Translations under genes and position numbers: made by a program
The notes under the pieces: model-generated
Databases searched by the model: none
The model's input: the letters and a program-made list of their open reading frames with translations, nothing else
Told to the model about the DNA's origin: nothing
Assembly (NCBI GenBank): GCA_025210795.1
Contig: JAOAQZ010000005.1
Location: forward strand, 62,001 to 126,000
Direction of reading: 5' to 3'
Source of the DNA: Cohaesibacter sp.
GTDB taxonomy: Bacteria; Pseudomonadota; Alphaproteobacteria; Rhizobiales; Cohaesibacteraceae
DNA length: 64,000 nucleotides
In this document: positions 20,966 through 26,641 of the stretch, piece after piece
Layout: each line of letters starts with the position of its first letter
Numbering within the stretch: position 1 is the first letter of the stretch

Positions 20966-22138
20966 TTAAGTGTCCAGACCTCGTTTTTTGCGCACGTGAG
21001 AAACGGCATCAGAGGTAGAGACCTCAATCCCGGCATCGCGCTGAGAAACCTGGAAGGACAAAGCTTCATCGGCGATCACTTGCGGATCCGGCTCTTCACC
21101 ATTCGGCGTATCACTCATTTCTGTCTCGCCAAATTCGATAATCTTTGGCTGACCAGACAGAACATCCTTCAGCAGAGATACGAGATTACTGGTTTTGGTT
21201 TCAGTGCCATCAGAGAACTCAATTGCATCTTCAGCCTGGCAGGCCGCACCATCCAACAAGGCAACGACCTTGGATTTGTTTCCGGATGGCAATTTGCCAT
21301 CATTGATCAGACCCTCAGCAAAGGAGACATGGTCCTTGTGGCGCTGATCGGCCTCTTTGACATCAAGCGCCGCCTGACGCGCATCCAGTTCCGCTTCACG
21401 TTCGGCAAAGCTGACTTCCTGATCACCTGACTGACCTGATGGCGCAGCCTGACCATTCGGTTTTTTGACCTTGTTGGCCATATCGTCATCCTCTTCATTT
21501 TGGGAAAAATCACTTGAGGCAACATCCGTCTCAACAGAACCTGCATCCTCAATCCAACCGATGGTCCAGTTGGGCAACACATTGTCGGCTTCTTCCGTAC
21601 CCTCCTTGGAGATGATCCATTCCCGGAGTTTACGAAGAAGCCCGGCGACATCCCGAAAAGCAGGATCAGCAAATTCGATGGTTACCGCATCATCGTCATC
21701 GGAAAACTCAACAGGCTTCAGACCAGGAACCGCAGGCGCAGCAGCACCCAGAAACCCGACATGCTTGGGATAGAGTTGTCCCGGCATCGGGTTGGCAGTC
21801 GAGCTAGGCTGATAGAATGACATGGAGATACGCTTGTAGCGCCCATCCTCTACCGCATCTGAGAATTGCGGTTCCAGCTTTCCAACATCGGCAAAGAGCT
21901 TGTCTGCATCCTCATCAAAGCTGAAGCTCTGTACCCAGCCAAAGGCAGGATCGTCAGATTTGGGATGGCCCACAAAGACAGGGACAGGATATTGATCAGG
22001 ATCATAACGCTCAGCCAGATCAGCCAGCTCTTGAGCTGTCGCAGAAAAGGACATGCCGCCCATAGCCGTAAATGTGCCCGGACGGAAAACCTCAATCCGC
22101 TTCGTCTCATTCTGTGTTGCTTCATTCTTTCTGGCCAC
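20966..22138 (-). CDS. Mu gpI-like head maturation protease/scaffold
   Basis: About 390 residues. N-terminal protease domain: IEVFRPGTFTAMGG, YPVPVFVGHPKSDDPAFGWVQ with the histidine of the I-family catalytic set, YKRISMSFYQP with a serine, and HVGFLGAAAPAVPGL. C-terminal scaffold-like coil: VSFAEREAELDARQAALDVKEADQRHK. It processes and scaffolds the procapsid. GTG at 22138 is taken as start because GGAG lies 8 bases before it; the upstream extension to 22192 has no such site. Confidence 0.88.
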   Translation of the reverse strand: MARKNEATQNETKRIEVFRPGTFTAMGGMSFSATAQELADLAERYDPDQYPVPVFVGHPKSDDPAFGWVQSFSFDEDADKLFADVGKLEPQFSDAVEDGRYKRISMSFYQPSSTANPMPGQLYPKHVGFLGAAAPAVPGLKPVEFSDDDDAVTIEFADPAFRDVAGLLRKLREWIISKEGTEEADNVLPNWTIGWIEDAGSVETDVASSDFSQNEEDDDMANKVKKPNGQAAPSGQSGDQEVSFAEREAELDARQAALDVKEADQRHKDHVSFAEGLINDGKLPSGNKSKVVALLDGAACQAEDAIEFSDGTETKTSNLVSLLKDVLSGQPKIIEFGETEMSDTPNGEEPDPQVIADEALSFQVSQRDAGIEVSTSDAVSHVRKKRGLDT

Positions 22139-22458
22139 GTTCCGGTCTCCAACTTCGAGATGTTGGAGTGACAATGGCAGCAAAAACAGCACCCCTCGCC
22201 GGAAGACTTCCGAACGGGATCAAAGATCAAAATGAAAGGGAAAACTGAGAAGATGAGATGGTAGTGACTATACTACCCGCACATACAACAGCCAATAGGC
22301 CCTGTATGGGTTTTTAACGGGGGTTTAACGGGGGTAACAGGAGTTTTTGGTAACACCATAGCCGCGGAAGGATGAAATACGCTGTGTGATTAAAAAGAAC
22401 AGGGCCTATGGATCTTGGATACTACAAGCTGATCTACTAGCAATGTACAAAATGCAAA
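22139..22458. other. Central noncoding region with inverted repeats, candidate strong gyrase site
   Basis: 320 bp without a gene at almost the exact phage midpoint (23133 is the arithmetic centre). It contains a hairpin GTAGT/ACTAC at 22261-22276, an 11-bp perfect inverted repeat ATAGGCCCTGT (22295-22305)/ACAGGGCCTAT (22399-22409), and a tandem TTTAACGGGGG between them. In Mu the strong gyrase site lies centrally between G and I, the same gene neighbourhood as here. Function is inferred from position only. Confidence 0.4.
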
Positions 22459-23448
22459 CTAGCCATGTAGAGAGAGACCCAGATCACTATAAATCAACTC
22501 CAGATCTGTTTCGGAAATAGGGCAATCACATGGCGTGCTGTGACGTGCAGTGGCAACTGAGTAATATATTAGAAGGATACTTGGTATTCGGAAAGAAGCT
22601 ATCTGTTCCGCTCTCTCAGCAATTCGTGGTCCAATGAATTGTACCGTCTTTAGCATTCCGATGATATCATCTGCATTGGTACTATGGCCATATCTATCCA
22701 ATACGAGATCATTCAGTGGTGAGGATTCTCCTGTAGGACTTTTGCCGACCAATTCAGTATATTCCCGTGACAAAACAGCAGATAGTTCAAGAAGAGGCTG
22801 CACCTCCTTTGCAATGAGGTCATTTAAACGCTCAAAATAATCACTGGTGGCCTCTAAAAGAGCCATGCTCTTTGCCGCAGATCGCTTCATTTGAGGCGTT
22901 GTTTTTATAGAAGGTTTGTATAGCGTATCATGAACAACTTCACTGTAGGCATGTTGTAACAGTGTTCGCACCTGGATTTCACATGGCAGGTTCTCTGGAA
23001 ACTTCTCTCCCTTCCAGAATGTCTCAGGTACAGATCTCACTACATAGTGAATTGATTGATAGTCAAATTCATAAGGTTTATTTTCTATCTCCTCCTCATG
23101 GTCACGAGCCTTAACAGCAGTCCAAACTTCTGTTTCATTTTCTATTGCTTTAGCTACGCGCCGGATGTCTGTATCAAGTAAAAGTACAAATCTAACACCA
23201 ACTTTATCTTCTATCTCGTCATATGGCGACTTGTACGGTTTTCCTCGATGGAATGCTTTTTGAAGAAGGGATTCATCATCTTTTAGGCGAGGAATTGGTG
23301 GTACCCTAACAAAATAATCGACGTCGCGAGGAGCAATCTCAGCAGAGATGAGTTTTTTAACACGATCAACGACAAAGTCCCCCCAATTGCGGTAGCTTTG
23401 CTTCTCCGCATTCCATCGAACCAAAAAATCTTTCTCTTGATTGCTCAT
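22459..23448 (-). CDS. RelA/SpoT-domain nucleotide pyrophosphokinase-like protein, cargo
   Basis: 329 residues. The synthetase domain occupies about residues 30-190. Seen are DEIEDKVGVRFVLLL (the D..GVR block), FDYQSIHYVV (the YQSxH block), CEIQVRTLLQHAYSEVVHD (the EIQVRT block) and an N-terminal PIPRLKDDESLLQKA where the family has its R-x-K pyrophosphate-binding region, so catalysis looks possible. A helical C-terminal domain of about 130 residues follows. No HD hydrolase, TGS or ACT domain, so it is a single-domain alarmone or toxic (toxSAS/CapRel-like) type. It starts inside the stop of the NA37-like gene (ATGA at 23445-23448): strict coupling. AT-rich, unlike its head-gene neighbours. 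Confidence 0.82.
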   Translation of the reverse strand: MSNQEKDFLVRWNAEKQSYRNWGDFVVDRVKKLISAEIAPRDVDYFVRVPPIPRLKDDESLLQKAFHRGKPYKSPYDEIEDKVGVRFVLLLDTDIRRVAKAIENETEVWTAVKARDHEEEIENKPYEFDYQSIHYVVRSVPETFWKGEKFPENLPCEIQVRTLLQHAYSEVVHDTLYKPSIKTTPQMKRSAAKSMALLEATSDYFERLNDLIAKEVQPLLELSAVLSREYTELVGKSPTGESSPLNDLVLDRYGHSTNADDIIGMLKTVQFIGPRIAERAEQIASFRIPSILLIYYSVATARHSTPCDCPISETDLELIYSDLGLSLHG

Positions 23449-24527
23449 GTTTCTTTCAAAAATGGAGCTCGGATCGTTACCTGGGTAATTTCATTCTTCA
23501 TAGTATCTTCTTCCGGTCTTACATCCATTGTGACCATACCATTAGCTATAGCCTCTGGTGGAACTGATAGTTCAATATTACCGTCATACTTGAAGCGACG
23601 ACGCCTTAATTTGCTTTTGAGATCAGTAGTATCCCTTCTAACCGCCCTATTTGGGAACTGGCGACTTATCATAAACTCTTGATATTGATCCCGAAATTGA
23701 GACGGAACATGGCGCTCCGTGAACTCCTCTACAGTAAATGTTGGCGATTGGTCATTTTTTACGTATGTATACAGCGAATCCTGGAGATTATGTCTTGTTT
23801 CACGGTCTTGAATGTTTTTTTGTGCAAATTCCTTCGTAAGATTAAAGAATTTAGCGGTTTCATATGCGCTATCTTCCTTAAATCCGCAACCAAGGAAACC
23901 TTCATAAAAGTAAATTGCAGCAGCCTCACGGTTGTTAAGCGCGATGTAGTGGTCGAAAACTATACACTTCCACTGATCCTGGCTTTCTATCTGCCCTGAA
24001 GCACAGGTCATGAACCCTATCTTATATAGTCTTGTCGCTTTAGTCATAAACAGGTCATTTACGAATTCCGTTGTTAAGACACCGTCAACGCTGTGGCGTC
24101 TAAATCCCTCCTGTACTTCAGCTTTAATCACTGCGACAAATGGGCTATTTTCTCGACCAGAGGTGCCACGGAAAACAATTACTACGCCTCCAGGAAGGCT
24201 TCTGTTTTTTTGTGCTATAGCGAGTGCATCTGCAAATTTTTGGGAATAAAGTAAGAACTCGTCTGGTGTCTGAAGCTTGATAGCATTTTGGGCGTAATTT
24301 TGAAACGAACCAGGTCCGATGTCTTGAATCCGCATCTCAAGGGCTTTCGCTTTAGCAGAAAGTGCATCTGTTACACGTGTGCGAAAAGCCGTCATAGCTT
24401 CCATTGATAGGATTTCAAGGCGTTGCGCATAAAGCGGTTGAACGACCCTTCTTTCTGTATCACGCTTAAAAATTTCATGTACAGCTACGTCTGATATATT
24501 CAAATTCATCAAGAGATCATCGATCAT
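23445..24527 (-). CDS. NA37-like (YejK-type) nucleoid-associated protein, cargo
   Basis: 360 residues. Similarity by eye to the 37-kDa nucleoid-associated family: the N-terminus ISDVAVHEIFKRDTERRVVQPL parallels the I.Q.ALHQL.KRDE start of YejK; the middle has EFLLYSQKFADAL followed by GGVVIVFRG; FFNLTKEFAQKNIQDRETRHNLQDSLYTYV parallels the V.DFTAE...D...R...R..VYSY block, then FTVEEFTERHVPSQFRDQYQEFM. No membrane segment. First gene of a two-gene operon with the RelA/SpoT-domain gene, in a cargo spot between G and I. If the family role holds, this partner binds DNA or nucleoids and could sense or recruit; inferred. Confidence 0.65.
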   Translation of the reverse strand: MIDDLLMNLNISDVAVHEIFKRDTERRVVQPLYAQRLEILSMEAMTAFRTRVTDALSAKAKALEMRIQDIGPGSFQNYAQNAIKLQTPDEFLLYSQKFADALAIAQKNRSLPGGVVIVFRGTSGRENSPFVAVIKAEVQEGFRRHSVDGVLTTEFVNDLFMTKATRLYKIGFMTCASGQIESQDQWKCIVFDHYIALNNREAAAIYFYEGFLGCGFKEDSAYETAKFFNLTKEFAQKNIQDRETRHNLQDSLYTYVKNDQSPTFTVEEFTERHVPSQFRDQYQEFMISRQFPNRAVRRDTTDLKSKLRRRRFKYDGNIELSVPPEAIANGMVTMDVRPEEDTMKNEITQVTIRAPFLKET

Positions 24528-24695: not shown

Positions 24696-25202
24696 TTAGT
24701 TGGCCTCACCTCCCCAAAACCCTTCCAGAGCTTCCCGAACCATCTCCTCATCATCTTTTCCAATGCCGATATAAGGTCTGGCCGGGATCTTGACGCCCTT
24801 ACTGAACACATAGCCATTCTTGCTAGCGGGAATGCGAAGATATTTGCCACGCCTTGGCCTGATGATAGCACCATGCTGCATCACCCAGACCTTGGGGTGA
24901 TTGAGATTGGTGCCAACCTCGGCCTTATTGCTATCGGATTTCTGGTGGATTGAGCGGAGCAACTCGCCGCTATCTCGCAGTATGCCTTTGCCCGATCTAC
25001 GATTAGAAAAAGTGAGAGGTGATAGACCATTCCATTTATCGTCGTCCGGGCTTTTTTCATTCTCAAACCGATCAACGGTCTGATCAAAAAGCGTGATAGC
25101 AACAATCTTATGGATGGCGGATTTATCTTCCACCTTGTCCATGACCTCTTGAAGCCCATTCTGAAGGCCAGAAGTATCAAACCGGAAATAAACACCATCC
25201 AT
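24696..25202 (-). CDS. Mu gpG-like virion morphogenesis protein
   Basis: 168 residues, phage virion morphogenesis (tail completion) family: VYFRFDTSGLQNGLQEVMDKV at the start, the DDDKWNGLSPLTFSNRRSGKGILRDSGELLRSI block and the C-terminal IPARPYIGIGKDDEEMVREALEGFW. It follows the MuF gene, as in Mu. 24528-24695 behind it holds no gene; it is the upstream region of the cargo operon, with no promoter I can name confidently. Confidence 0.88.
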   Translation of the reverse strand: MDGVYFRFDTSGLQNGLQEVMDKVEDKSAIHKIVAITLFDQTVDRFENEKSPDDDKWNGLSPLTFSNRRSGKGILRDSGELLRSIHQKSDSNKAEVGTNLNHPKVWVMQHGAIIRPRRGKYLRIPASKNGYVFSKGVKIPARPYIGIGKDDEEMVREALEGFWGGEAN

Positions 25203-25330: not shown

Positions 25331-26641
25331 TCACTCTTTTTCTTTGCCCTGATCTCGTCGATACAACAAAGCACCACGCCGTTGCCGTTCCAGATAGCGA
25401 GGATCTGGCTTGTTGGCTTTACCTTTTGTCGCGTTGAAAACAGTTGCACCTTCCCAGCCATGTTTTGACCAAGCAAAAGAAACAAATCCGGCGAGGTCCG
25501 CAAAATAGCGCAAGTAGCGACGAACCAGTCGAACACGCCCTGCATGGTCTTGCTGCCAGTCAACCCAGATTTCATCTGGATCTTTCAAGCTATCAGCCAA
25601 ATAGGTCATATTGATTTCACGACCAAATTTCTTGACCTTCCAACGCCCATCCCCTGTCTTGAACAAATCGTCTGATATGACCAAGACATGACCGGCCTTG
25701 TCCCGCCAAAGGCTTGGTTCATGCAGATCAGCATCAAATTGCTCAAGGAAGGCAGAAACATAGACTTCATCGCTCTGGCCCGTTGGCAATGGCTTAATGG
25801 TGGTTGGTTTGGCCAACGTGGATAAATCTGGTTTCACCGGATCTGGCTTTGGTAGCTTGAGCCCAGCGGGTTTGAGCGGTTTTTGCATCTCTCTTGGAAC
25901 TAATCCATCAGCCCATGTCCGCCCTGGAGCATAGGCCCAACCCATACCTACGCCATCTGGATATTGAATGACTTCTCCCGTACCAGGGTCTTCGCGTTCA
26001 ACATACTGAATTGTGGGACTTGGATCTGGTCCGATTTTTCCCATGCGCTTGAGTTTGGAACGACCAACAGGACGAACACCACAACTACATCGCCAATCAT
26101 TGGGCGGATAATAGGTCAACCACCAAGGATCATCTGCACTAAGAACGAGACCGTCCCAATCTTCATGCTGCTGACGTGGCTCGGCGGGAACACGCTCCCA
26201 TGCATGCTTATATTCCCAAAATGGGTAAGCCTTGATAACAGCAGGATCCGTCATCTGCTGATAACGACCTGCCGAATAAGATGTTCTCAGATTGGTCTCA
26301 TAGATGACACGTGCCCGCCAATTGCGACCGCCCTTATAATCCCATCCGTGTTTTTTGACGATCTCATCAAAGGCATCAAGAAAACCGGGATGATAAGTGT
26401 CATCCTTATCCAACCAACCTTTCAGGGGCATGCCTTTATTGATGGCATCATCAATGGCCTTTTGGAAGTCTTCCAGCAAGGCATCCTTGGTGGCACCTGC
26501 AACAACAAAGGCCCGATCATGACCATGATGCAGAACATCAGTCCAGGCATTAGTTGGAAGGCGAACCTTCTGACGCTGAAACTCTAAAGCCTCTTTGAAC
26601 GGACCAATCTCGTTAAAATCACGAACAGCAGTCGCAGGATT
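25331..26641 (-). CDS. MuF-type minor head morphogenesis protein (no start codon; frameshift from portal)
   Basis: About 436 residues. Its N-terminal MuF segment (NPATAVRDFNEIGPFKEALEF, then LPTNAWTDVLHHGHDRAFVVAG) is conserved-looking, followed by LLEDFQKAIDDAINKGM, then ARVIYETNLRTSYSAGRYQQM and PNDWRCSCGVRP with paired cysteines. No ATG, GTG or TTG occurs in this frame from the in-frame stop at 26660-26662 down to a TTG about 55 residues into the conserved part. The frame overlaps the portal end at A9G (26647-26656), suggesting expression by -1 shift as a portal-MuF fusion, or a one-base error. The stretch 25203-25330 holds nothing I can support. Confidence 0.78.
   Translation of the reverse strand, partial: NPATAVRDFNEIGPFKEALEFQRQKVRLPTNAWTDVLHHGHDRAFVVAGATKDALLEDFQKAIDDAINKGMPLKGWLDKDDTYHPGFLDAFDEIVKKHGWDYKGGRNWRARVIYETNLRTSYSAGRYQQMTDPAVIKAYPFWEYKHAWERVPAEPRQQHEDWDGLVLSADDPWWLTYYPPNDWRCSCGVRPVGRSKLKRMGKIGPDPSPTIQYVEREDPGTGEVIQYPDGVGMGWAYAPGRTWADGLVPREMQKPLKPAGLKLPKPDPVKPDLSTLAKPTTIKPLPTGQSDEVYVSAFLEQFDADLHEPSLWRDKAGHVLVISDDLFKTGDGRWKVKKFGREINMTYLADSLKDPDEIWVDWQQDHAGRVRLVRRYLRYFADLAGFVSFAWSKHGWEGATVFNATKGKANKPDPRYLERQRRGALLYRRDQGKEKE

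Follow-up and report, generated by a model that had tools for sequence, protein, structure and literature searches.

What is a RelA/SpoT-type synthetase doing beside an NA37 protein among the head genes of a Mu-like prophage? The question is raised by two genes in the window, the whole 64,000-nucleotide stretch of Cohaesibacter sp. DNA that was analysed, which an earlier note had singled out as a candidate undescribed defence pair. To our knowledge, synthetase-based phage defence has so far consisted mainly of toxSAS toxins, in which the antitoxin or sensor is drawn from a few folds. If the reading developed below is true, the partnership with NA37, which occurs across several phyla in prophages and on plasmids, would supply a new regulator or sensor fold, and the long-obscure NA37/YejK family would gain a selectable function. 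The pair recurs and its members are essentially never apart, and it is therefore very probably a real, largely uncharacterised anti-phage or growth-arrest module.

The pair and its place in the prophage

The earlier note described two overlapping, AT-rich genes between head genes G and I. Its coordinates prove exact, and the flanks, which lie outside the module, are indeed a Mu G-like gene and a protease. The features are as follows.

24696..25202 (-): Mu G-like virion morphogenesis gene, flank outside the module (PF05069, E 8.5e-20)
23445..24527 (-): NA37/YejK-superfamily protein, first gene of the pair, 360 aa (PF04245, E 2.2e-16)
23445..23448 (-): ATGA stop/start overlap of the NA37 and synthetase genes
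22459..23448 (-): RelA/SpoT-type synthetase, second gene of the pair, 329 aa (PF04607, E 5.8e-15)
22912..23289 (-): synthetase domain, residues 54-179 (Pfam stretch)
22462..22896 (-): conserved C-terminal helical extension of the synthetase, residues ~185-329 (alignment and AF2 model)
20966..22192 (-): head maturation protease (Mu I-like), flank outside the module (phrog_976, E 1.2e-99)

The ATGA overlap implies that translation of the two genes is coupled. The GC content of the pair is 42.2%, against 49.5% for the whole window. No third small gene was found in the gaps around the pair, and promoter and terminator scans around it returned nothing beyond chance level. In a related Mu-like prophage (L091) the protease directly adjoins the G-like gene across a gap of 184 bp, and in other relatives it lies beside an F-like gene; the pair is absent from all of these, which identifies it as an insert in the window. 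In the window's own Mu F-like minor head protein (25331-26479 (-)), Phage_Mu_F is followed at the C-terminal side by a fused PBECR2 nuclease-like domain (PF18810, E 3.6e-32).

Recurrence, linkage and carriers

The recurrence of the pair, which the earlier note had proposed to check by a neighbourhood survey, is extensive. A profile built from three synthetases found full-length relatives on 34 viral contigs, and on every one of these (34/34) an NA37 gene directly precedes the synthetase gene on its strand. A separate scan of viral sequences starting at NA37 gave 50 contigs, with the synthetase immediately downstream in 48 of the 48 that were evaluable, the remaining two ending at or inside NA37. 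The same arrangement accounts for five of the six NA37 matches in the genome collection, and all five in plasmid records have an adjoining synthetase match. Altogether 62 distinct pairs, counted after grouping at 95% synthetase identity, were found in prophages, plasmids and genomes of several phyla, which places the pairing far beyond chance. More distant RelA/SpoT synthetases from a sample of 398 genomes of the same phylum serve as a negative control, since they have no NA37 within 1.5 kb; the three NA37 and three full-length synthetase matches in this sample are the same three loci, the window's own included.

The two genes overlap by 4 bases or 1 base (-4 or -1) in 43 of the 62 distinct pairs. 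Pairwise distances among NA37 proteins follow those among the synthetases (Mantel r 0.83 over 41 pairs, a value reached by 0 of 5000 permutations), and by this measure the two are co-diversifying. The GC content of the pair is below that of its flanks in 62/62 cases, with a median difference of -10 points, and such a deficit combined with co-diversification marks a unit that travels. The two genes overlap, stay together and evolve together as one unit of mobile elements. A reading of the two genes as accidental neighbours or a degenerate remnant could appeal to the Neisseria gonorrhoeae copies in which the synthetase frame is split in two, but the survey refutes it, since 62 distinct pairs are linked whichever gene the search starts from, with frames intact and the active site conserved, and we give it almost no weight.

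Named hosts include Pseudomonas, Escherichia, Klebsiella, Ochrobactrum, Neisseria, Sporomusa, Hymenobacter and Streptomyces. Most copies are in prophages, several of them near antiterminator Q or lysis genes, and unrelated phages carry the pair at unrelated positions. The pair also occurs on a conjugative plasmid (IncFIB) and on islands that carry an integrase or a relaxase and have no phage structural genes close to it. Among 50,697 isolated phage genomes neither an NA37 match nor a synthetase match over the full length turned up at the sensitivity used, which suggests that the pair is mostly a gene set of prophages and plasmids. When four different forms of the pair served as DNA queries, 5 of 5426 complete E. 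coli genomes proved to carry the module, between them in three versions, and the copies in strains L725, BEC1-S17 and SCU-102 make it directly testable in K-12.

Two side observations concern the synthetase family. In N. gonorrhoeae NZ_CP119140 (L084:8053-9062) the synthetase is split into two overlapping frames and the adjoining NA37 gene is intact; in NZ_CP119142 the tblastn match to the synthetase is likewise in two pieces. The chromosomal small RelA/SpoT-type proteins at L065 to L080, from the same phylum as the window and without NA37, are uncharacterised relatives that match the family profile with E 1e-21 to 1e-43 and are about 320-390 aa long, two being longer or cut.

The synthetase and its NA37 partner

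Both protein identities proposed from the sequence were upheld by profile search. The synthetase scores 56 bits against RelA_SpoT (cut-off 27) and contains the motifs that had been quoted for it (GVR, YQSxH and EIQVRT). The accompanying claim that it has no hydrolase or regulatory domain is right in that the Pfam search found neither an HD hydrolase nor any further domain, but the synthetase domain is not all there is to the protein: its C-terminal extension is modelled with high confidence as one ~50-residue helix plus a helical bundle (AF2; pLDDT 94 for the protein). Residues R54, K56, S60, K64, D81, R86, Y130, H134, E157, Q159 and R161 are kept in 42-44 of the 44 synthetase sequences examined, so that the catalytic residues are essentially invariant. 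By motif spacing, the synthetase residues match R64, K66, S70, K74, D90, R95, Y128, E145 and Q147 of FaRel2, a set with ATP-donor, Mg and acceptor-base roles in that enzyme (PMC11782079). We predict with high confidence that the synthetase is enzymatically active.

The likeness to toxSAS and CapRel toxins suggested in the earlier note holds for the missing hydrolase and the retained donor residues, whereas by both structure and profile RelP/RelQ are nearer. They are the best structural matches of the model (VIA Z 17-19), ahead of CapRel (13.8), Tas1 (11.4) and FaRel2 (8.1), and the synthetase profile matches RelP/RelQ with E about 1e-13 and RelQ-like chains over the range E 1e-11 to 1e-15, compared with E 0.002 for CapRel. 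From these model and profile comparisons the synthetase looks closer to RelP/RelQ than to CapRel or FaRel2, which leans towards a nucleotide rather than tRNA as acceptor, without deciding the matter. The PADLOC model PDC-S33 matches just a part of the synthetase domain.

The NA37 protein scores 60.6 bits against PF04245 (gathering cut-off 24.6). Its AF2 model (pLDDT 88) has E. coli YejK (9be2) as best Foldseek match (E 1.3e-7; VIA Z 14.7 over 303 residues), and YejK is a host nucleoid-associated protein. It falls below the cut-off of the YejK NCBIfam equivalog PRK00378.1 (24.1 vs 341 bits), and PADLOC has no model for it. The second-ranked fold match is KwaB of the Kiwa system (VIA Z 5.2-5.5 over ~140 residues); profile-profile comparison gives a probability of 0.3% and thus lends no support to homology, leaving KwaB as a weak structural lead only. 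The motif YXXY, with which antitoxins of tRNA-type toxSAS neutralise their toxins, is not conserved in NA37, occurring in at best 8 of 44 sequences at any column. NA37 is on balance a candidate regulator or sensor, with putative roles in DNA binding, sensing and inhibition of the synthetase.

Neighbours, proposed function and known systems

Some copies of the pair have further genes beside them. A 2TM SLATT-like protein of a single family adjoins 10 of the 62 pairs; its members have matches to the DUF4231 and SLATT profiles, in several cases no better than close to the cut-off or below it, the SCU-102 neighbour is annotated as SLATT, and DUF4231 is the commonest Pfam family among the 136 neighbouring genes. 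No SLATT-like gene was seen at the other 52 of the 62 pairs, which makes any signalling arm a minority feature. In Hymenobacter sp. BT730 (L018:4880-8042) a patatin gene lies 30 bp upstream of the pair on the same strand, and its product matches PADLOC CBASS phospholipase effectors (E 2.6e-99). In E. coli SCU-102 (L082:4459-12322) a tRNA-Thr island carries an integrase, the SLATT protein, NA37 and the synthetase, followed by PsyrA and PsyrT, and this is the only locus found at which a well-defined defence system (PsyrTA) lies directly beside the pair. An NA37 gene of Petrimonas sp. IBARAKI (AP018040.2; L019:5135-7047) overlaps a DUF6602 gene whose product matches NucC-like effectors (E 1.8e-13); the 12.8 kb examined contain no RelA/SpoT gene, and the locus may represent a second NA37 partnership, with a DUF6602/NucC-like nuclease. 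An HTH gene upstream of the pair in E. coli L725 was considered as a part of the module and rejected, as it recurs in few loci only and reads as a phage repressor.

Carriage on mobile elements, the copy beside a known defence system and the CBASS-type effectors beside some copies all speak for the defence role claimed from the sequence, and a part in defence or in conflict between mobile elements is likely. More specifically, we favour, by a modest degree, a mobile two-gene anti-phage module acting by superinfection exclusion or abortively and carried as cargo of the Mu-like prophage. In the scheme that follows, the toxicity of the synthetase, what it makes, what sets it off and the part played by NA37 are inferred. 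NA37, made first, would restrain the synthetase, sense infection, or both, the candidate triggers being phage DNA, an altered nucleoid or a phage protein. Once triggered, the synthetase would move pyrophosphate from ATP to an acceptor, which is rather more probably a nucleotide, giving a (p)ppGpp- or (p)ppApp-like product, than the CCA ends of tRNA, an acceptor that we consider unlikely though worth keeping in mind. In the two-gene form, to which the copy in the window belongs, the product would by itself halt growth and the making of new phage; in forms with a SLATT-like 2TM or patatin gene it could plausibly switch on the membrane effector. Should the product indeed gate these proteins, alarmone-type nucleotides would have to be counted among the second messengers used in bacterial immunity. 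A broader formulation, in which the pair founds a class of nucleotide-signalling immunity with a RelA/SpoT synthetase in place of the CD-NTase, NA37 as sensor, interchangeable effectors (SLATT-like 2TM or patatin proteins, and a NucC-like nuclease with NA37 alone) and the alarmone as effector in the two-gene form, is speculative, and we think it doubtful.

The main rival to this anti-phage module is a type II toxSAS toxin-antitoxin system, in which the synthetase would pyrophosphorylate tRNA CCA ends and NA37, an antitoxin with a new fold, would be set free or broken down when infection occurs. Antitoxin-first gene order, the stop/start overlap, 1:1 pairing and co-diversification are all consistent with it, every ATP-donor residue of FaRel2 is conserved, and the antitoxins known for toxSAS are diverse (PMC8832971, PMC11782079). 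The resemblance of the synthetase to RelP/RelQ and the absence of a conserved YXXY argue against it, however, and it leaves the adjoining SLATT-like and patatin effectors unexplained; we regard it as unlikely. Considerably less probable is that the pair is non-defensive cargo serving phage fitness by tuning host physiology or phage DNA organisation, with ppGpp for lysogeny control and NA37 for phage chromatin or topoisomerase IV. The nucleoid association of YejK and the predominance of prophage copies, some close to Q or lysis genes, would suit such a role, but copies on the IncFIB plasmid and on islands without phage structural genes, copies beside PsyrTA and a CBASS-type effector, and the unrelated positions in unrelated phages would not.

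Set against known systems, the favoured anti-phage module combines familiar parts in an unfamiliar way. RelP and RelQ, which are non-toxic (p)ppGpp synthetases, share the fold and active site of the synthetase domain; unlike them, the present protein has ~330 aa with a C-terminal extension, is always paired with NA37 in the survey and resides on mobile elements. The toxSAS CapRel, FaRel2 and PhRel likewise have a hydrolase-less synthetase, a two-gene overlapping operon and carriage by phages or prophages, and the ATP-donor and acceptor-base residues are present here with the HD hydrolase absent; the partner, however, is NA37 and not a pZFD/YXXY, Panacea (DUF4065), SAH or Tis1-like antitoxin. 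With CBASS the pair has in common a probable nucleotide-making enzyme and, at some loci, SLATT-like 2TM or patatin effectors. In contrast to CBASS, a RelA/SpoT synthetase replaces the CD-NTase and an effector is usually absent: the synthetase matches PF04607 only and contains no CD-NTase (SMODS) domain, none is encoded beside the window pair, and no nucleotide-gated effector gene was found at the window locus. E. coli YejK/NdpA belongs to the same Pfam family and has the same overall fold as the NA37 protein of the pair, which differs in lying far below the YejK equivalog cut-off and in its near-obligate synthetase partner.

Whether the pair is also undescribed, as had been supposed, is partly a matter of one recent report. 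Searches confined to PubMed Central text found no paper on the pair or joining NA37 with toxSAS or RelA/SpoT. The running text of the DefensePredictor study (2026, Science) lists a 'YejK nucleoid-associated domain' among those for which a role in E. coli phage defence was newly validated, and names no partner for it (PMC13092281). On the strength of that entry, an NA37 protein is already known to act in defence in at least one system, perhaps the present pair, and the validated system, which like the pair places an NA37/YejK-domain protein in an anti-phage setting, may be the very same module (PMC13092281). What the present work contributes is the association of NA37 with a synthetase, the near-obligate character of their linkage, how widely the two are distributed and which effector genes lie beside them.
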